Of a stretch of DNA of 37,131 nt, positions 1-36,141 are shown piece after piece; the stretch's first letter is position 1, and every line of letters begins with the position of its first letter. Position numbers and translations under genes: made by a program. Source of the DNA: a virus. Location: the IMG/VR virus record IMGVR_UViG_3300049459_000188, positions 1-37,131 of that record; one strand, 5' to 3'. The notes beneath the pieces are model-generated. The model saw only the letters and a program-made list of their open reading frames with translations. It was not told the DNA's origin and searched no databases.

Positions 1-3000
1 CTTTTTTTGCTGTCACTGATGATCTGGACCGCAACGGCTGACGCGCTGACTCTGACCGATGAAGAACGTAGCTGGCTGGCGGCTCACCCGGACTTGCGCC
101 TGGGTGTCGATGCGTCGTGGCCGCCCTTTGAGTTTCGCGACGATCAGAACCGCTACCAGGGCCTGGCGGCGGACTATATCGACGTGATTCGCCAACGCCT
201 GGCGATCAAGTTGACGCCGATCGAGCCCGTGAGCTGGACGGTGGTACTGGAACAGGTCAAATCGGGCAAGATCGACCTTCTGCCCGGCATCATGTCCACC
301 CCTGAACGCCAGACCTACCTGTCGTTCACTCGCCCCTATCTTGATTTCCCGATCGTGATCCTCGCGCACATCGGCGGCGCGCAACCGCGCAAACTCGACG
401 ACCTGTACGGTTTGAAAATCGCCGTGGTGGAAAACTATGCGCCCCACGAACTGCTGCGCACCCACCACCCCGATCTGAATCTGGTCGCCATGCCCAATGT
501 CAGTTCGGCGCTGCAGGCGTTGGCGACCGACGAAGTGGACGCTGTGGTCGGCGACCTCGCTTCGAGTGTCTGGAGCCTGCGCCAGCTCAAGCTCGACGGC
601 CTGTACGTCAGCGGCGAAACCCCCTATCGCTACCAACTGGCAATGGCCGTGCCCCGCGACAACAAAGTACTGGTGGGAATTCTCGACAAAGTGCTCGCGG
701 ACATGAGCCCTGATGAAATCAGCAGCATTCAGGAGCACTGGGTCGGCAACGTCCTTGATCATCGGACATTCTGGTCGGATCTGTTGATCTACGGTTTGCC
801 GGGGCTGTTGCTGTTGGTGACGATTCTTGCCGTGGTAATCCGCATCAACCGCCGCCTGAGTTCGGAAATCGCCCGACGCATCGACCTCGAACAGGAACTG
901 CGCAGCAGCGAATATCACTATCGCGGCCTGGTCGAGAGCCTGTCGGCCATCGCCTGGGAAGCGCGGATAAGCGACTTCACCTACAGCTATGTCTCGCCCC
1001 ACGCCGAAGATCTGCTCGGCTACCCCCAATCCCATTGGCTGATCCCCGGCTTCTGGCACAACATCATTCACCCGGCAGATTTGACCCGTACGCAAAGCTA
1101 CTGCAAGGAAGCCCTGCGCGAAGGCCGTGATCACATCGTCGACTATCGAGTGATCACCGCCGATGGTCGCTGCTTGTGGGTGCGCGACATCGTCAGCCTG
1201 ATCGAACATGGTCATGAGCCGCTAATGCGCGGCCTGATGATCGACATCAGCGAAATCAAGCGCACTGAAGAGGCGTTGCAGCTCTCGGAGCAAAAGTTCG
1301 CCTCGGTCTTCCAGCAATGCCCGGACATTCTGGTGATTGCACGGCTGTCCGACGGTTGCCTGCTGGAGGTCAACGAAGCGTTTGAAGAACAGATCGGGCT
1401 GAAAGCCGAGGAAGTCCTTGGGCAGACGGCGACCGAGCTGAATATCTGGGGCATTCCCGGCGTTGGTCCGGGACTGCTGCAACGTTTGCAGGCGGGCAGC
1501 ATTCGCAACCTGGAGATGCCCTTTCGCCGCAACAACGGCCAACTGTTCACTGGTCTGATTTCCGCCGAGCCGTTCGATCTGGACACCACGCCAGCCTTGG
1601 TGGTCGTTGTACGTGACATCACCCAGCTCAAGGAAACCCAGCAGCAGCTGCAAACCTCCGAAGAGAAATTCGCCAAAGCCTTCCATGCCTCGCCGGATGG
1701 TTTGTTGTTGTCACGCCAGAGCGATGGCCTGCTACTGGAGGTCAACGAGGGTTTCAGCCGTATCACCGGTTTCAATAGCGCCATGTCGGTGGATAGGTCG
1801 GCGCTGGATCTGGGCATCTGGGTCAACCTCAACGAGCGCAAACAGATGCTCGACCTGTTGCACCGCGACGGCTTTGTGCGTGACTTTACCTGCCATATCC
1901 GCCGCAGTGACGGGCAGATTCGCCTCTGTGAAGTCTCCAGCCGTCCGCTGCCGATCGGTGAAGAAGACTGCATGCTGACCATCGCCCGCGACATCACCGA
2001 GCGTCATCTGATGCAGGAAAAACTGCAACAGGCCGCCACTGTGTTCGAAAGCACTGCCGAAGGCGTATTGATCACCGACACCCAACAGCACATCAGTGCG
2101 GTCAACCGCGCCTTCACCGAGATTACCGGTTACAGCGAAAGCGAAGCGCTCGGCCATACACCGCGCCTGCTCGCCTCCGGCCTGCATGACAGCGCGTTCT
2201 ACGCGGCAATGTGGCACCAGTTGACCGACGAAGGTCACTGGCAGGGCGAGATCTCCAACCGGCGCAAGAACGGCGAGTTGTACCCGAGCTGGCTGACCAT
2301 CAGTGCCGTACGCAATCGCGACAAGTTCATTACCCACTTTGTCGCGGTGTTTGCCGACATCTCCAGCCTCAAGCATGCGCAAGCCAAACTCGACTATCAG
2401 GCGCACCACGACCCGCTCACTGGCCTGCCGAACCGCACGCTGTTCGAAAACCGCTTGCTGATGGCACTGAACAGTCAGCAGGAAAACGGCGGTCAAGGCG
2501 CCGTGCTGTTTCTCGATCTCGACCGTTTCAAACACATCAACGACAGCCTCGGTCACCCGGTCGGCGACCTGCTGCTCAAGGGCATCGCCGTGCGCCTGAA
2601 AGAGCAACTGCGCGACATCGATACCGTGGCGCGTCTGGGTGGTGACGAATTCATCATCCTGCTGCCCGGCCTGCAACAGGCCAGCGACGCCGACAACATC
2701 GCCACCAAACTGCTCAATTGTTTCGGTGCGCCGTTTCAGGCCGGCGAACACGAGTTCTTCATCAGCGCCAGTATTGGCACCAGCCTCTACCCACGGGACG
2801 GTTGTGACGTCGCCACCTTGGTGAAAAACGCCGACGCGGCGATGTACCGCTCCAAGGCCAAGGGCCGCAACCGCGTCGAGAGCTACACTCGCGATCTCAC
2901 GGCCCAGGCCAGCGAGCGCATCGCGCTGGAACACGAACTGCGCCGGGCCATCGAGCGCGATGAACTGTTTCTCTACTACCAGCCGAAAATCAGTCTGGAG

Positions 3001-3726
3001 GATCACAGCCTGGTCGGTGCCGAAGCGCTGATCCGCTGGCGCCATCCGACCTTCGGCGACGTGCCGCCAGAGCATTTCATTCCGCTCGCGGAAGAGAACG
3101 GCATGATCCTGCAGATCGGTGACTGGGTGCTGGAGACCGCGTGCCGGCAGATGTTCGAATGGAATCAGGTCTACGACAGCCTCGGCCCGCTCTCGGTGAA
3201 CCTCGCCGGCGCGCAACTGCGTCAGCCAAATCTACTCGGACGCATCGAACAACTGCTCAACGACAACCGCCTGCAGCCGGATTTACTGCAACTGGAAATT
3301 ACCGAGAATTTCATCATGAGTCAGGCCGAAGAGGCGCTGGCCGTGTTGCACCAGCTCAAACACCTCGGCGTACAACTGGCGATCGACGACTTCGGTACCG
3401 GATATTCTTCGCTCAGTTACCTCAAACGCTTGCCGCTGGACATCCTCAAAATCGACCAATCATTCGTTCGCGGACTGCCCGACGATCCCCATGATGCGGC
3501 CATTGTCCGGGCCATCATTGCGCTGGGCCGGAGCATGCAATTCACGGTCATCGCCGAAGGTGTGGAAACCCAGGCGCAACAACAATTTCTCGCCGCCGAA
3601 GGCTGCGAACAGATCCAGGGCTACATCGTCAGCCTGCCGCTACCGCCGGAAGAATTCGCCGCGACGTTTCTTCGTGTAACCGTATCGGATTATTCGGATA
3701 GCACAGCCGAGAAACCGTCGCTATAA
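1..3726 (+). CDS. rmcA: RmcA-like sensor: periplasmic binding domain, PAS repeats, GGDEF and EAL (5' end outside window)
   Basis: Inner-membrane c-di-GMP turnover protein. Counting from codon 7-9, residues about 15-245 form a periplasmic solute-binding (SBP_bac_3) domain and about 259-280 a membrane span. Four PAS-type modules follow (about 300-418, 430-550, 553-670, 680-800), then a GGDEF domain (motif intact near residue 878) with an RxxD inhibitory site five residues upstream (RDID), then an EAL domain. EAL signature residues are present: EALIRW, VNLAGAQ, LEITE, DDFGTGYSS, LKIDQSF and AEGVE. Both catalytic domains therefore look competent. The reading frame is open to base 1 and starts inside a hydrophobic leader, so the true start lies upstream. 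Domain order and length of about 1240 residues match P. aeruginosa RmcA (PA0575), a redox-responsive c-di-GMP phosphodiesterase in colony biofilms; the name is inferred from architecture. Confidence 0.85.
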   Translation, partial: LFLLSLMIWTATADALTLTDEERSWLAAHPDLRLGVDASWPPFEFRDDQNRYQGLAADYIDVIRQRLAIKLTPIEPVSWTVVLEQVKSGKIDLLPGIMSTPERQTYLSFTRPYLDFPIVILAHIGGAQPRKLDDLYGLKIAVVENYAPHELLRTHHPDLNLVAMPNVSSALQALATDEVDAVVGDLASSVWSLRQLKLDGLYVSGETPYRYQLAMAVPRDNKVLVGILDKVLADMSPDEISSIQEHWVGNVLDHRTFWSDLLIYGLPGLLLLVTILAVVIRINRRLSSEIARRIDLEQELRSSEYHYRGLVESLSAIAWEARISDFTYSYVSPHAEDLLGYPQSHWLIPGFWHNIIHPADLTRTQSYCKEALREGRDHIVDYRVITADGRCLWVRDIVSLIEHGHEPLMRGLMIDISEIKRTEEALQLSEQKFASVFQQCPDILVIARLSDGCLLEVNEAFEEQIGLKAEEVLGQTATELNIWGIPGVGPGLLQRLQAGSIRNLEMPFRRNNGQLFTGLISAEPFDLDTTPALVVVVRDITQLKETQQQLQTSEEKFAKAFHASPDGLLLSRQSDGLLLEVNEGFSRITGFNSAMSVDRSALDLGIWVNLNERKQMLDLLHRDGFVRDFTCHIRRSDGQIRLCEVSSRPLPIGEEDCMLTIARDITERHLMQEKLQQAATVFESTAEGVLITDTQQHISAVNRAFTEITGYSESEALGHTPRLLASGLHDSAFYAAMWHQLTDEGHWQGEISNRRKNGELYPSWLTISAVRNRDKFITHFVAVFADISSLKHAQAKLDYQAHHDPLTGLPNRTLFENRLLMALNSQQENGGQGAVLFLDLDRFKHINDSLGHPVGDLLLKGIAVRLKEQLRDIDTVARLGGDEFIILLPGLQQASDADNIATKLLNCFGAPFQAGEHEFFISASIGTSLYPRDGCDVATLVKNADAAMYRSKAKGRNRVESYTRDLTAQASERIALEHELRRAIERDELFLYYQPKISLEDHSLVGAEALIRWRHPTFGDVPPEHFIPLAEENGMILQIGDWVLETACRQMFEWNQVYDSLGPLSVNLAGAQLRQPNLLGRIEQLLNDNRLQPDLLQLEITENFIMSQAEEALAVLHQLKHLGVQLAIDDFGTGYSSLSYLKRLPLDILKIDQSFVRGLPDDPHDAAIVRAIIALGRSMQFTVIAEGVETQAQQQFLAAEGCEQIQGYIVSLPLPPEEFAATFLRVTVSDYSDSTAEKPSL

Positions 3727-3741: not shown

Positions 3742-3818
3742 GGGCCTATAGCTCAGTTGGTTAGAGCAGAGGACTCATAATCCTTTGGTCCACGGTTCAA
3801 GTCCGTGTGGGCCCACCA
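3742..3818 (+). tRNA. tRNA-Ile2 (anticodon CAT, lysidine type)
   Basis: 77-base cloverleaf. The acceptor stem GGGCCTA pairs with TGGGCCC, followed by discriminator A and an encoded CCA. The anticodon stem GAGGA/TCCTT encloses loop CTCATAA (CAT at 3776-3778), and the T stem CACGG/CCGTG encloses TTCAAGT. CAT could be read as elongator Met, but C4-G69 and C5-G68 are the pairs used by lysidine synthetase TilS to recognise tRNA-Ile2, and the TTGGTC variable region resembles E. coli ileX. Bases 3774-3818 are duplicated at attR, so the 3' part of this working copy was probably supplied by the prophage. Confidence 0.9.
3774..3818 (+). repeat. attL core (45 bp direct repeat)
   Basis: Identical base for base to 35314-35358. 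The repeat begins in the anticodon loop (CTCATAA) and ends at the CCA. The flanking bases differ on both sides (GGA before this copy, CGGG before the other). Confidence 0.93.
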
Positions 3819-20474: not shown

Positions 20475-20998
20475 GCCTGCGCGGCAGGGTTCAGGCCGGT
20501 GTGATTGCGCTGGCCAGCGCTCCGTTGGTGATCTTCCTGGGCACTTGGGAAGGCAACGGCCAGAACACCGTTTATGCGGACAAGCTCGCCGGGGGACTAC
20601 CCACGGTTTGCAAGGGCATCACTCGGTTTACCAGCCCATATCCGGTCATCGTTGGCGACTACTGGTCACCCGCCAAGTGCGCCGAGGTGGAGCAACTGGT
20701 GATCCGCAAAACGCAGTTGCAGCTTGCCGAGTGCATCACCAACCCGAATGCCAGCCAGAACACGTTCGACGCCCTCACCAGTCACGGCCACAACTTCGGT
20801 GTGACCAGCACCTGCGCCAGTCGAGCGGTCGCGCTTATCAACGCCGGCCGGATCGCCGAGGGCTGCAACGCTTTGGCATGGGCGCCGGACGGCAAGACGC
20901 CGGTATGGGCTTATGTGACCGACGCCCAGGGCCGCAAGCACTTTGTTCCAGGCCTGCACAACCGCCGGCTGGCTGAAGTGGAGGTTTGTCTGAAATGA
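20471..20998 (+). CDS. SAR endolysin (T4-type lysozyme, GH24)
   Basis: 175-residue muramidase that cuts peptidoglycan at lysis. An N-terminal Ala/Gly-rich, weakly hydrophobic segment (AGVIALASAPLVIFLGTW) is a likely signal-arrest-release anchor. Catalytic residues are Glu in TWEGNG, Asp in YADKL and Thr in LPTVCKG. SAR lysozymes are exported by Sec, wait tethered and become active when the membrane is depolarised. The ATG at 20471 (ATGA overlap with the holin-like gene) is preferred over a GTG at 20462. Confidence 0.9.
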   Translation: MSLRGRVQAGVIALASAPLVIFLGTWEGNGQNTVYADKLAGGLPTVCKGITRFTSPYPVIVGDYWSPAKCAEVEQLVIRKTQLQLAECITNPNASQNTFDALTSHGHNFGVTSTCASRAVALINAGRIAEGCNALAWAPDGKTPVWAYVTDAQGRKHFVPGLHNRRLAEVEVCLK

Positions 20999-21525
20999 CG
21001 ATTCCACCGCTACGGCTCGCGCTGATCGTGATGCTGATTACTGCCCTGGTGCCCTTGTATTGGTTCATCCGGGTTGTGGATCAACGTGATGAAGCGCTGA
21101 AAGACTTGAAAGGCCTGAAAACGGAGGTCGTCGGGTTGCGCGAAGCGGCCCGAATCAGCGGCGAAATGCTCGCCGAGCGGGACGCGATCGACCAACGAAA
21201 CACCAAGGAATTGACCGATGCACTCACTGAAAACGAGCGCCTGCGCCGCGCTGTTAGCGGTGGCACTGGCCGGCTGCATGTCCGCGCCACCTGTCCCGCC
21301 ACCGGATCTGTGCCCGCCGCCGCCGGCACCGCCCGCGTGGCTGATGCAGGACGCGCCGAACTCGCAACAGACGCTCGACCGGATTATTTCACCCTCCGTA
21401 ATCAGCTGGCCCTAAGCCGGCAAATGATTCTCGGACTCCAGCAATACGCCCGTGGCGTGTGCCTGCGATCGCCAGCACCCCAGGACACCACTTTTCCCAA
21501 CCTCTACAAGAGACCAACCCCATGA
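20995..21525 (+). CDS. Rz-like inner-membrane spanin
   Basis: 176 residues. An N-terminal membrane anchor (LALIVMLITALVPLYWFI) is followed by a long charged coiled coil (DQRDEALKDLKGLKTEVVGL) and a low-complexity Ala/Gly region. With the nested Rz1 it would link inner and outer membranes and disrupt the latter at lysis. The ATG at 20995 overlaps the endolysin stop (ATGA). The C-terminal half carries the Rz1 gene in another frame, which explains its biased composition. Confidence 0.85.
   Translation: MTIPPLRLALIVMLITALVPLYWFIRVVDQRDEALKDLKGLKTEVVGLREAARISGEMLAERDAIDQRNTKELTDALTENERLRRAVSGGTGRLHVRATCPATGSVPAAAGTARVADAGRAELATDARPDYFTLRNQLALSRQMILGLQQYARGVCLRSPAPQDTTFPNLYKRPTP
21218..21415 (+). 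CDS. Rz1-like outer-membrane spanin lipoprotein, nested in Rz
   Basis: 65 residues encoded in a shifted frame wholly inside Rz. It has a lipoprotein signal with lipobox LAGC (residues 16-19) and a mature part very rich in proline (PPVPPPDLCPPPPAPP), both classic Rz1 traits. A ribosome site, AAGGAA, lies seven bases before the ATG. The mature lipoprotein should sit in the outer membrane and bind the Rz C-terminus. Confidence 0.88.
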   Translation: MHSLKTSACAALLAVALAGCMSAPPVPPPDLCPPPPAPPAWLMQDAPNSQQTLDRIISPSVISWP

Positions 21526-21815
21526 GCCAACAGAACAACACCGAAATCACCCTGGAAGTCGGCGAAGCGGAATTCACCTTCAACCTGACCCCGGCTGACG
21601 TCACCAAGTATTTCAACGCCCTGACCCAAGCCAACAAGGTCGCCCCAGGCAACAACCTGTTGATGACCACCGTCAAGCAAGAGGAAAAGGCCACGTTGAA
21701 ACCGTTGCTGGCCAACCCGGTAATGGTGATGCAGATCGCCGGCGCGCTGCTCGAGGAGTACGCGCCGAACGTTGAGGTGATCGTAAAAAAGCGCACGAGC
21801 ACGCTGAGCGCCTAA
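21522..21815 (+). CDS. Tail assembly chaperone (short, 0-frame form)
   Basis: 97 residues. The gene lies between lysis and tape measure genes, the usual place of tail assembly chaperones that coat the tape measure during tube growth. The N-terminal half is an acidic beta sheet (ITLEVGEAEFTFNLTPADVT) and the rest helical. It begins in an ATGA overlap with Rz. Codons 88-90 (GTA AAA AAG) contain an A AAA AAG slippery heptamer, eight codons before the stop. Confidence 0.8.
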   Translation: MSQQNNTEITLEVGEAEFTFNLTPADVTKYFNALTQANKVAPGNNLLMTTVKQEEKATLKPLLANPVMVMQIAGALLEEYAPNVEVIVKKRTSTLSA

Positions 21816-21979
21816 GCGAAAACGGCTTGGGCCAGCTCATGGCCCTGACGAACCGATGGCTACCTGGTACGGAACCCACGCCCGAGGCGATGGGAACCGC
21901 CAAGTGGTTGGAGGACGAATACTGGAAACGCATGGAGTTCGCCGTGGCTAACGGCATCGCCCTTGCGCTGAACGGATAA
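21522..21979 (+). CDS. Frameshifted tail assembly chaperone (long form, -1 at 21791)
   Basis: If ribosomes slip back one base at A AAA AAG (21785-21791), translation continues from 21791 for 62 more codons and stops at TAA 21977-21979. The added segment starts AHEHAERLSENGLGQLMALT, then has Trp-rich helices (KWLEDEYWKRMEFAVANG). It looks like a real protein, has no initiation codon or ribosome site of its own that would produce the whole segment, and fills the gap before the tape measure. Lambda G-GT and P2 E-E' use the same arrangement, in which the extension binds the tape measure. Confidence 0.8.
21785..21791 (+). promoter_or_regulatory. Programmed -1 frameshift slippery site (A AAA AAG)
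   Basis: The heptamer is in the exact phase X XXY YYZ relative to the chaperone frame, the same sequence as the E. coli dnaX site. No stimulatory pseudoknot was modelled. Confidence 0.85.
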
Positions 21980-21984
21980 CGACT

Positions 21985-23970
21985 TTGGCAGACCGTAGCG
22001 CCAGCCTGGCTTTCATTCTCAGCTTGCAGGACAAGGTCACCGCGCCGCTGGGCAAGGTGAAAATGGGCTTTTCCGAGCTTGCTGATCAAAGCGAAAAGCA
22101 CATTAAAACGATCGGCTTGGGCATGGGCGGTGTGACGGCGGCGGTCGTCGGGATTCAACAGGCCATGGCGCCGGCGTTGGAGGTCAATCGTGCCCTGGGC
22201 GATGTCCGATCGCTGGGCGTGGCCGACGACGCCTTGACTGCACTGAACAAAAAATCTTTGGAGTTCGCTGTGAATTACGGTGAAAACGCCAAGGACTTTG
22301 TAGCGTCGGCGTACTTGATCGAGGGCGCAATTAAGGGACTCGCCGGCAACCAGCTCGCCACCTTTACCAACACCAGCAACCTTCTGGCCAAGGCCACCAA
22401 GTCCGACGCCGAAACCATGGGCGAATACGTCGGCACGCTCTACAACCTGCAAAAGTCCCAAGCCGACGCGATGGGGAAAGGCGCGTGGGTAGAAAAGCTC
22501 GGCGGGCAAACGGCGCTGGCTGTGCAGCTGTTTCGCACCAGCGGCGCGGCGATGAAAGATGCGTTCAAGGAAGCCGGCGCGATCGCCACCACATCCGGCG
22601 TCGATCTTGCCGAACAGATGGCGGTGATCGGCACGCTCAGCAGCACCATGGAAGGCGGCGACGCCGGCGGACGCTACAAAGCGTTCTTCGAGAACATCGG
22701 CGCTGCGTCGGAAAAGCTCGGCATGAAGTTCACCGACCAACAGGGCAAGGTCCTGCCGATGATGGCCATCCTGGACAAGCTCCAGGGCAAGTTCGGCGAC
22801 CTGACCAGCGCGTCGGCCGGCGCCAAGCTGATGGAGGCTTTCGGCGGCGAAGGCGCCCAGGTGATCGGCGCGCTGGCCAAGGACACCGACCGATTGCGCA
22901 ACGGCATCGAGCAGTTGGGCAAGGTGCGCGGTCTGGAAAATGCCGAGCAGATGGCCAGGGCTATGGTCGATCCGTGGCAACAGTGGGCGTCCCTGGTCGA
23001 AGTCATGCGGGTGGTGTTTGGCCAGGTGCTGATCCCGGTACTGACGCCGTTCATGAGCAAGATGGTCGACATCGGCAAAACCCTGGTGCGCTGGTCGCAG
23101 CTGTTTCCCAACATCACCCGGGTGATAGGCATCACCGCACTGACCATCATGGCGATCGTCGGCGCCATGTCGTTGTTGACCGTCGTGGTCGGCGTAGCCC
23201 GGATGACCTGGCTGGGCCTGTTATCGGTGTGGAAGGTCATGCAGTTGCTGAACCTGCGCACCGTTGCCGGCTTCGTCCTGCAGAAACTGGCGATCCTGGC
23301 TTACATGGCCGTGATCTACACGCTCAGCGCCGGTCTTGCCCTGGTGCGCGGCGCCATGCTGCTTTGGCAGGGCGCGATCTGGCTGGTCAACGCGGCGCTG
23401 TTGGCCAACCCGATGGTGTGGATTGTGGTGGGTGTTCTCGCCCTGGTGGCCGTCATTGTCGCGGCGGTCTACTACTGGGACGAATGGACGTCCGCCCTGA
23501 TGAACACGGCCGCGTTCCAGTTCGTCGCCGACAAGCTGCAGAAGCTGTCCGACTGGTTCAACTCCATGGGCGGCTGGTCAGGCATGGCCAAGGCCGCGTG
23601 GGACAGCATCGTCGGCATTTTCACCAAGGCCGTAAACGGTGTGATCGAGCTGCTGAACAGCATCCCGGGCGTGAACATCGAAGCGCGCTTCGGCGGTATG
23701 CCTGAAGTGCCTGGCGTCGATGCCGCGACCAATGCCGCCGACACCGCCAACGCCGCACAGAAAGCCCAGCAGACCATCAACGCGGCAATCCCCAGCCTTT
23801 CACCGGCGCGCCCTTCAGCGGTGCCGCCCGGTGGTCTGCTGACCAGTATCCAGAACAACAACAGCAGCCAGAACAAGGGCACGCATGTTGAGAACGTGAA
23901 CATTCACACGGGCAAGACCATGACGCCGCTGGAGATGGAAAACATGGTCGCAATGGCGGTCGGCGGATGA
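21985..23970 (+). CDS. Tail tape measure protein
   Basis: 661 residues. Long helical N-terminal third, a phage tape-measure core region (TNTSNLLAKATKSDAETMGE and ALAVQLFRTSGAAMKDAF), then hydrophobic segments (about 381-410 and 435-495) and a Gly/Ala/Asn-rich end. It sets tail length and is ejected ahead of the DNA. The start is a TTG five bases after the stop of the frameshift product, so initiation may depend on ribosomes arriving there; no better ATG is nearby. It overlaps the next gene by four bases. Confidence 0.9.
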   Translation: MADRSASLAFILSLQDKVTAPLGKVKMGFSELADQSEKHIKTIGLGMGGVTAAVVGIQQAMAPALEVNRALGDVRSLGVADDALTALNKKSLEFAVNYGENAKDFVASAYLIEGAIKGLAGNQLATFTNTSNLLAKATKSDAETMGEYVGTLYNLQKSQADAMGKGAWVEKLGGQTALAVQLFRTSGAAMKDAFKEAGAIATTSGVDLAEQMAVIGTLSSTMEGGDAGGRYKAFFENIGAASEKLGMKFTDQQGKVLPMMAILDKLQGKFGDLTSASAGAKLMEAFGGEGAQVIGALAKDTDRLRNGIEQLGKVRGLENAEQMARAMVDPWQQWASLVEVMRVVFGQVLIPVLTPFMSKMVDIGKTLVRWSQLFPNITRVIGITALTIMAIVGAMSLLTVVVGVARMTWLGLLSVWKVMQLLNLRTVAGFVLQKLAILAYMAVIYTLSAGLALVRGAMLLWQGAIWLVNAALLANPMVWIVVGVLALVAVIVAAVYYWDEWTSALMNTAAFQFVADKLQKLSDWFNSMGGWSGMAKAAWDSIVGIFTKAVNGVIELLNSIPGVNIEARFGGMPEVPGVDAATNAADTANAAQKAQQTINAAIPSLSPARPSAVPPGGLLTSIQNNNSSQNKGTHVENVNIHTGKTMTPLEMENMVAMAVGG

Positions 23971-33873: not shown

Positions 33874-35148
33874 ATGAGTAGTTGGATAGACAAAATCGCG
33901 GACCATTCAGTATTCCAAATATTGGACACCTTGAATCAAATCCTTGAAGCCCCTGGCGCAATCGACAAAAAAGACATAGAGGCAATAGAGGCCGTCGAAA
34001 AAGCTAAAGCAATAGTTCAATTTGTTAAACTTCGTATTAGCCAAGCCGACCCTTTACTAACCTCAATAACAGTACTTAACAACATTCATAACTCACTACA
34101 AACGGCTTACCACAACATTACAAACTACGCACAAAACGGAAATTTTGGACACTGGATAAATGCTCTAAACGAACTCGAAACGTGCTGCATACTCACTACG
34201 CAAATACCGCTCCTGACTCGAGACGGTATTGACAGCATGATTCAGTCAGCAACTGAATTCCGATCGTCAATTTCGAAACTATTCAAATCAGTACAATCTG
34301 AAAGCGCTGAGTTACACAAGACACAAGAAGATTTAAAGCAAAAAATTTCCGACGCTGCTGCAGATATCAACGCTCAAAAACAGCGTTTAGACATAGCAAT
34401 AACTACCTACCAACAGCAATTTTCCGAGTCTCAACAAGCAAGACAGAACGAATTTTCTTCGTCAGAGCAGGCAAGACTCATAGCTGGAGCTGCAAGCGAG
34501 GAAGGCCGACAGCAGGCATTTGAGTTACTCAAAAACCAAAATATTGATGATTTTGCGCAAGTCATAGCTTCGTCCAAAAAAAATCACGCTGATGCGATAG
34601 TTGAATTAAAGGGCACTGCACAGTCTGCGTTGGATCTCATAGAGGCCCAAAAGGAACACTGCCAAAAGCTCGTTGGTATAATAACCAATACTGGCATGGC
34701 ATACGGTTTTCAAAAGACAGCTAACGAAGAGCAAAAACAAGCATTCATTTGGAGCATCATCGCGGTAGTTGCGATGTCCATCTGGATAATAATTGGATGT
34801 GTGTTTTTTGGTTTCACCTACGACAAAGAACTCACACTTCCCTCTGTCATCAGACAATTTCTGATATCTACTCCTTTCGTATTGCTATCCGGATTCGCCG
34901 CAATTCGAGTTAGCCAGCATCAAAAAACAGAAAGAAATATGCGTAAATCGGAATTAGAAATTGCCTCGATCGACCCATTCCTGGCCACCCTGTCTGATCA
35001 AGACCGGAACGACGTTAAACGTGAGTTTGCTACGCGATACTTTGGACAGAACGATGTGCCAGAGAAGCATGAGCCTGTCCCTTCGAATCTAGTGGAGCTG
35101 GCTGGCTCGCTGGTGAAGCTCGTCCAAGATCTGACAAAAAAGCCATAA
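33874..35148 (+). CDS. AT-rich cargo coiled-coil membrane protein of unknown function
   Basis: 424 residues. An all-helical N-terminal domain (about 1-135), a long coiled-coil region rich in Gln/Glu/Ser (about 140-285), two membrane spans (FIWSIIAVVAMSIWIIIGCV near 290-312 and FLISTPFVLLSGFAAI near 329-345), and a cytosolic C-terminus of about 75 residues. The layout is that of a membrane-tethered sensor or effector; no catalytic motif was recognised. AAGGA lies six bases before the ATG. G+C is low (22 of 60 at 34021-34080). It occupies the lysogenic-conversion position between the packaging region and attR. Possible roles: phage exclusion or host surface change. Confidence 0.75.
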   Translation: MSSWIDKIADHSVFQILDTLNQILEAPGAIDKKDIEAIEAVEKAKAIVQFVKLRISQADPLLTSITVLNNIHNSLQTAYHNITNYAQNGNFGHWINALNELETCCILTTQIPLLTRDGIDSMIQSATEFRSSISKLFKSVQSESAELHKTQEDLKQKISDAAADINAQKQRLDIAITTYQQQFSESQQARQNEFSSSEQARLIAGAASEEGRQQAFELLKNQNIDDFAQVIASSKKNHADAIVELKGTAQSALDLIEAQKEHCQKLVGIITNTGMAYGFQKTANEEQKQAFIWSIIAVVAMSIWIIIGCVFFGFTYDKELTLPSVIRQFLISTPFVLLSGFAAIRVSQHQKTERNMRKSELEIASIDPFLATLSDQDRNDVKREFATRYFGQNDVPEKHEPVPSNLVELAGSLVKLVQDLTKKP

Positions 35149-35475: not shown

Positions 35476-36141
35476 ATGTTCCCAAACTATGTTTTCTCCC
35501 CCTCTCCGCGCGTTGTCGACCAATTCTCCAGACAAGTAATCTCCGGACGCCACCGCCCGTCCAGGATTGTTTTTATGCTCGTGAATGCTGCGCCACTGAT
35601 AAAGGAAGCAGCCCACCAACCAACCTGGATCAACCTTGCGTTACCTGATTTGAGAACGTTATCGAGAGAACTTCGGTCAGCGGCAATCGACGAGATAAAA
35701 AGGGCTGACAACGCAGAAGACGCCCTCAAAATCCTTCTGGATCAAGTTGGGTTTCTCGACGAGTCCGTACTGACCGTCACTATCCTCACACCCATTGGGA
35801 GGGTGGCAGTCATGAGAGACAAACTGGCTCATATCGTTGAGAAACGTCCAGACTCCCGAGAGCGCTATGTTCGACATGCCATCGATACGCTCACGGGACC
35901 TTTCGAAGTCTGGAAAGTCCTTTACGATAATGGCGGTTACCGAATGGCATTCATCAATGCCTATGAGGCAAAAAACGACATGCTTGTCGTGGTCGATGTA
36001 CGAAACGGGCATGTCCTCTGGAACTTCATGCACGCACCGGCCAGAGCGATGAACAAACACCGCCAAGGCGAGCTTTTGTACAAGCGGTACATTCTTGAAG
36101 ACAAAGAAAAGGGCAGCCATTTGGCTGCCCTTGATGTTTGA
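35476..36141 (+). CDS. PBECR2-like nuclease-domain protein
   Basis: 221 residues. From about residue 95 the pattern matches PBECR2 (phage Barnase-EndoU-ColicinE5/D-RelE-like nuclease): MRDKLAHIVEKRPDSRERYV, then an IDTLTGPFEVWKV strand, a central beta sheet (MLVVVDVRNGHVLWNFM) and the end HRQGELLYKRY. Such domains usually sit at the C-terminus of Mu F/SPP1 gp7 head-morphogenesis proteins or act as toxins. Here it stands alone, outside the prophage, with a poor ribosome site (TAGGA directly against the ATG), so it may be a fragment of a larger gene from an earlier element. A later Met (residue 34) is an alternative start. Confidence 0.7.
   Translation: MFPNYVFSPSPRVVDQFSRQVISGRHRPSRIVFMLVNAAPLIKEAAHQPTWINLALPDLRTLSRELRSAAIDEIKRADNAEDALKILLDQVGFLDESVLTVTILTPIGRVAVMRDKLAHIVEKRPDSRERYVRHAIDTLTGPFEVWKVLYDNGGYRMAFINAYEAKNDMLVVVDVRNGHVLWNFMHAPARAMNKHRQGELLYKRYILEDKEKGSHLAALDV
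36109..36132. terminator. Hairpin overlapping the end of the PBECR2 gene
   Basis: 10-bp perfect stem, AAGGGCAGCC (36109-36118) and GGCTGCCCTT (36123-36132), loop ATTT. A T-rich tract follows only on the minus strand (TTTTCTTTGT), so it is a better terminator leftward than rightward. Confidence 0.6.

Follow-up and report, generated by a model that had tools for sequence, protein, structure and literature searches.

Does the small gene directly 5' of the tape measure gene encode one tail-assembly protein or two? The window, the whole stretch analysed here, is a 37,131-base IMG/VR virus record of a Pseudomonas-type prophage with relatives in the HP1/K139 group. Profile matches place its HP1-type tail genes in the order DUF2586 tail sheath, HP1 Orf24-like tail protein, Rz-type spanin gene, chaperone and tape measure. 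The tail assembly chaperone of 97 aa (21522–21815, plus strand, as are all features of this locus; phrog_1214) matches Pfam PF10963, Phage_TAC_10, with an E-value of 4e-18. Its ATG overlaps the stop codon of the spanin gene as ATGA, and its own stop codon is at 21813–21815. Within the spanin gene (20986–21525), an ORF with a lipoprotein-like start (21218–21415) is nested in another frame, as Rz1 usually is. The earlier note had proposed that a −1 shift on the heptamer A AAA AAG at 21785–21791 joins an extension of 62 codons to the chaperone. The heptamer is indeed in the correct phase, AAA (21786–21788) and AAG (21789–21791) being codons of the 97-codon ORF. The −1 frame is free of stops from 21776 onward, counted from stop to stop, and the extension (21791–21979; Pfam PF21830, DUF6890; phrog_7050) has 62 codons at 21791–21976 and a TAA at 21977–21979, just as proposed. 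The predicted frameshift product (21522–21979) is composed of 90 + 62 = 152 aa and carries Phage_TAC_10 and DUF6890. In the 0 frame, RTSTLSA and the stop codon follow the heptamer (21792–21815). Our answer, which we hold with a probability of about 95%, is that the gene would make two tail-assembly proteins by a −1 ribosomal frameshift on A AAA AAG, like lambda gpG/gpGT. The proposal is strongly supported by the conserved heptamer, phase and frame, and by protein-level selection that appears in the −1 frame only.

The relatives were collected in several ways. Viral contigs were scanned with the chaperone, which gave 80 loci, and also with the extensions of six lineages. Genome contigs were scanned with an alignment of Pseudomonas-type extensions, which likewise gave 80 loci, and 20 annotated phage records were added. 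The total was 530 sequences including the window, with many duplicated contigs. Both parts of the gene are present in 528; the other two (L291 and L423) were left out because a contig end cuts both just there. Removal of duplicates left 420 distinct sequences, which form 132 clusters at 90%. Because the clusters are themselves relatives, no probability is attached to cluster counts. As the extension served to find the majority of the loci, its presence in those is no test; the test is provided by the sets recruited by the chaperone. A second such set of 33 loci, 14 of them new in sequence, was obtained with the Pfam chaperone model in whole genomes (33 of 57 different matches listed). The chaperone was found in 2 of the 369 genomes of a class-wide draw and in 48 of the 398 genomes of a genus-level draw, and the latter was used.

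The plain heptamer occurs 9 times on both strands of the window against 5.6 expected. Therefore, the motif alone says little, and the case is carried by its phase, place and conservation. Runs of six As in phase are found at three places among the 5026 codons of the 14 window ORFs examined. Another in-phase A AAA AAG, at 35136–35142, lies two codons before the stop of the ORF 33874–35148, and its −1 frame closes after about 10 codons. It is probably due to chance and serves as a contrast case to the chaperone site. Among the relatives, A AAA AAN in the chaperone phase together with DUF6890 in the −1 frame was found in 526 of 528 loci, which bears out the conservation in HP1/K139-like phages that the earlier note had named as a check. 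One exception has five As only (L198). In the other (L364), an insert of about 1.1 kb splits the chaperone gene (about 880–1900) and the slip site is intact. All 113 loci recruited by the chaperone alone have the site and the −1 extension (80/80 from viral contigs and 33/33 from whole genomes). By comparison, the upstream part of the chaperone, with 31,080 codon positions over the 420 distinct loci, holds three other in-phase AAAAAA runs. The site takes four forms in the 132 clusters. In 55, the class of the window, seven codons separate A AAA AAG from the 0-frame stop. The stop adjoins the heptamer in the A AAA AAC form (49) and in one A AAA AAA form (27), and a single cluster, Pseudoalteromonas phage ACA1, combines A AAA AAA with seven codons. 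The codon containing the first A is GTA in 127 clusters, ATA in three and CTA in two. In the window's class, GTA precedes the slip in 55 of 55 clusters, although in the same genes GTA makes up 5.2% of the Val codons and AAA 25% of the Lys codons. Therefore, the conservation of GTA AAA AAG reflects a constraint on the nucleotides, not on the amino acids.

The extension behaves as a protein. It matches DUF6890 with 70.5 bits against a curated cut-off of 23.6 (E 1e-19), and the same match was obtained with 54 of 54 diverse extensions. Over 53 clusters of the window's class, the −1 frame gives a pN/pS of 0.24 from codon 10 onward, compared with 0.90 for the chaperone frame and 2.33 for the remaining one. 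In the short overlap 3' of the heptamer, the pN/pS is 0.41 in the −1 frame and 2.89 in the 0 frame. Because the overlap is constrained in the −1 frame only, the seven 0-frame codons look like throw-away sequence. In 523 of 526 loci, the extension is 60–64 codons long. Stops in the −1 frame are not frequent in close relatives, since exactly 62 codons are kept in all 80 relatives recruited by the chaperone from viral contigs. Early −1 stops occur in three loci (L243, L284 and L285); these and the locus with the split chaperone are probably decaying prophages. AlphaFold predicts a compact three-helix domain for the extension with a mean pLDDT of 96.1. No PDB fold matched it at E ≤ 0.001, the best being E 5.1. 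The chaperone is predicted with a pLDDT of 90.6. Its best solved match is a protein of unknown function (3fgx, Z 9.2), and the HK97 chaperone 2ob9 follows with a modest Z of 5.3. These middling scores are only suggestive of kinship to known chaperones. By sequence, nothing credible was found in the PDB for either part. NCBIfam gave no match, nor did Rfam for 21500–22100 of the window up to E 1.

It could be argued that DUF6890 is a separate small gene begun inside the −1 frame and that the A run is incidental. The domain indeed has a CDS of its own in 8 of the 20 phage records (e.g. phi3 gp26, phiO18P_37 and F108), and it is left blank in 11 and joined to the chaperone in one, ACA1. The window also holds an in-frame ATG at 21839–21841, whose counterpart in phage phi3 is annotated as the start of gp26. 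However, this ATG is not conserved. In 37 of 132 clusters no ATG, GTG or TTG precedes codon 24 in the −1 frame. The most frequent start position, an ATG at codon index 17, is present in 22 clusters only. One cluster of the 132 has a start codon ahead of the heptamer. Moreover, in the two stop-adjacent classes residues 2–17 are about as constrained as residues 18–60 (pN/pS 0.39 against 0.37, and 0.48 against 0.38), and a protein begun at codon 17 would lack helix 1 of the prediction and some of helix 2. A separate start also leaves GTA AAA AAG unexplained. Such a gene is therefore quite improbable. The Pfam model of DUF6890 starts at residue 20 of the window's extension, as would be expected of a model built from truncated ORFs; likewise, the Phage_P2_GpE model starts at residue 18 of P2 E'. 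On these comparisons, DUF6890, which is listed as a domain of unknown function, is very probably the end that the frameshift adds to the HP1-type tail chaperone. This gives the domain an identity and corrects its usual annotation.

A frame change in transcription was also considered. RNA polymerase might slip on the six or seven consecutive As of the site, so that a fraction of the transcripts would be one A longer or shorter. However, longer runs are usually needed for transcriptional slippage, and among the 420 distinct loci the run is exactly six (334) or seven (86) and never longer. The conserved phase of the heptamer and the folded RNA downstream fit slippage of the ribosome instead. We regard the transcriptional origin as even a little less probable than the separate gene. 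That a chance motif or a sequencing error stands beside an unrelated open frame, as the near-chance count of the heptamer in the window might suggest, is refuted by the comparative counts, with site and frame kept in 526 of 528 relatives and the extension under selection, and can be dismissed.

Possible stimulators were examined next. The folding of the 60 nt after the heptamer (+7 to +67) was compared with that of dinucleotide shuffles in the three site classes. The mean folding z is −2.11, −1.53 and −2.07, in contrast to control stretches upstream (−0.27 to 0.27) and further downstream (−0.42 to −1.08). The window itself gives −2.41 for 21792–21851. Its predicted hairpin, a candidate stimulator at 21805–21839, begins 13 nt 3' of the heptamer and has 8 bp, a 2-nt bulge and 5 bp. 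RNAalifold returned no consensus fold in any class. For the individual hairpins of the Vibrio-type and HP1-type subclades, and for that at +44/+60 in the window's class, 91–93% of cells pair, and compensatory changes are few (3, 5 and 7 cells). In the Vibrio-type relatives (L168, L169, L176 and kin), the region +14 to +45 from the heptamer holds a stem with as many as 13 bp, which begins 7 nt after the site and would be close to a textbook stimulator. The hairpins of the HP1-type and Pseudomonas-type lineages are placed elsewhere. With moderate confidence, we consider the downstream folds to be lineage-specific stimulators. An alternative register of the HP1 hairpin was rejected, as it is paired in 46% only. 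The Shine-Dalgarno-like stretch GAGGTGATC (21774–21782, duplex −9.9), 5' of the heptamer, was rejected as a stimulator of the class; the share at or below −6 is 0.22 against 0.21 in controls, and it is not conserved. It is a possible stimulator in the window itself. The exact GAGGTGATCGT occurs in 5 of the 55 clusters of the window's class.

The frameshift is of a known kind, and in GenBank it is already projected for one relative. The heptamer of lambda differs from that of the window. Lambda gpG/gpGT shares with the window a small chaperone, a −1 shift near its end and an extension before the tape measure (PMC5009743); the protein sequences differ, and the functions are those shown in lambda only. 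In P2, E and E+E' (NC_001895, P2p25/26) represent the same phage family, the same place just before the tape measure and the same −1 logic, and the start of the tape measure gene T likewise lies at the end of the extension. The P2 shift is reported at T6G (PMC3091744, PMC3931495), so that its heptamer is TTTTTTG and not A AAA AAG. P2 E' overlaps T, whereas the window has a 5-nt gap. The P2 proteins belong to Phage_TAC_7 and Phage_P2_GpE, of which the window's proteins are not members, and no profile similarity of E or E' to the two parts was detectable with P2 as a single sequence, which is a weak test. The closest precedent is ACA1 gp36/gp36a (OR438928), with a homologous Phage_TAC_10 chaperone and a DUF6890 extension. 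Its GenBank note joins the two by a projected programmed frameshift, by analogy to P2; its heptamer is A AAA AAA, unlike that of the window. The available text of the ACA1 paper (PMC10612066) does not discuss the frameshift. HP1, K139, F108, phiO18P and the Vibrio relatives have the homologous chaperone and DUF6890 with a −1 site at the same place, but their heptamer is A AAA AAC or A AAA AAA and the stop follows directly. For other chaperones, 6–7% frameshifting was reported for two HK97-like cases in E. coli (PMC3711429), and A AAA AAC was reported in phiCbK (PMC3556154) and possibly in Paenibacillus phage Dragolir (PMC6003738). The literature search found no paper on DUF6890. PF10963 and PF21830 were in none of the matches listed, which were unrelated 'TAC10' strings. 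Nor did the search, whose range does not take in the survey of Xu et al. 2004, find a paper that treats frameshifting with K139, HP1, tail and tape measure together.

From the frameshift reading, we infer a scheme for the two proteins. The 97-aa chaperone would come from the majority of ribosomes, which stop at 21815. On A AAA AAG, a minority would move back by one base, probably aided by the folded RNA just 3'. The shifted ribosomes would read 62 more codons and give the 152-aa protein, in which the chaperone is followed by the helical DUF6890 domain. If the parts act as in lambda gpG/gpGT, the chaperone part may coat the tape measure protein. The DUF6890 part may bring the tail tube subunit to the coated tape measure, and the proportion between the two products would then matter. 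Ribosomes ending at 21979 may also promote initiation of the tape measure gene at its TTG, five bases downstream.

The predicted tape measure protein has 661 aa (21985–23970). Its TTG at 21985 follows the −1 stop at 21979 by 5 nt, in agreement with the earlier note. In the relatives, the start was sought between −8 and +45 relative to the −1 stop, with ATG taken first, then GTG and finally TTG. Fifteen of the 420 loci were dropped because they were cut or without a long frame, which left 405 usable distinct loci. TTG is the start in 66 of the 405, all in the window's class, and the others have ATG or GTG at a like place. Therefore, the TTG at 21985 is a credible start. The earlier note also suggested that translation of the tape measure could depend on the shift, and here the result is divided. 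In the window's class, the gap from the −1 stop to the tape measure start is 5–7 nt in 40 of 50 clusters; in the AAC class, a 4-nt ATGA overlap is seen in 14 of 47 clusters. The leader of the window's TTG scores −3.3, which is weaker than eight other starts examined and stronger than the chaperone's own (−2.9). Short gaps and a weak ribosome-binding site make the dependence plausible, and it fits the window's class. On the other side, gaps of 21–38 nt occur in part of the AAA class, where the ribosome-binding sites are also stronger (mean −5.4 against −3.6).

The relatives also differ in where the 0-frame stop lies. The slip site touches this stop in 76 of 132 clusters (HP1/K139/Vibrio-type, e.g. 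L160–L179), whereas seven codons lie between the two in the window's class. The type of heptamer and the placement of the stop go together almost perfectly, although as few as two or three ancestral events may account for this association. In a bacterial test, a stop in the stop-adjacent place lowered slippage and the release factor competed; Rous sarcoma virus and barley yellow dwarf virus are given as natural −1 cases with such a stop (PMC4373837). The sites of the HP1 type would represent stop-adjacent −1 slippage as it occurs naturally in bacteria. A wider reading, which we consider rather unlikely, distinguishes two kinds of site. In the first, a strong A AAA AAG would be followed by seven throw-away codons. 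In the second, AAC or AAA would touch the stop, the release factor would compete, and the slip would be post-translocation with the stop in the A site. In both, the shifted ribosomes would mainly feed the tape measure gene. If this were true, a single slip event would determine the dose of the tape measure along with the chaperone ratio. The relatives supply naturally occurring bacterial −1 sites, some with an adjoining stop and others lacking one, on which the moment of slippage, a debated point, could be tested.

Two further observations concern the ends of the record. Positions 1–3726 code for a PAS/GGDEF/EAL signalling protein, and a tRNA-Met gene follows at 3742–3818. Therefore, the left end is probably host chromosome, that is, the record would be a prophage with a host flank. 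Near the right end, a PBECR2 nuclease-like protein is encoded at 35476–36141 (Pfam PF18810, 1.8e-12).
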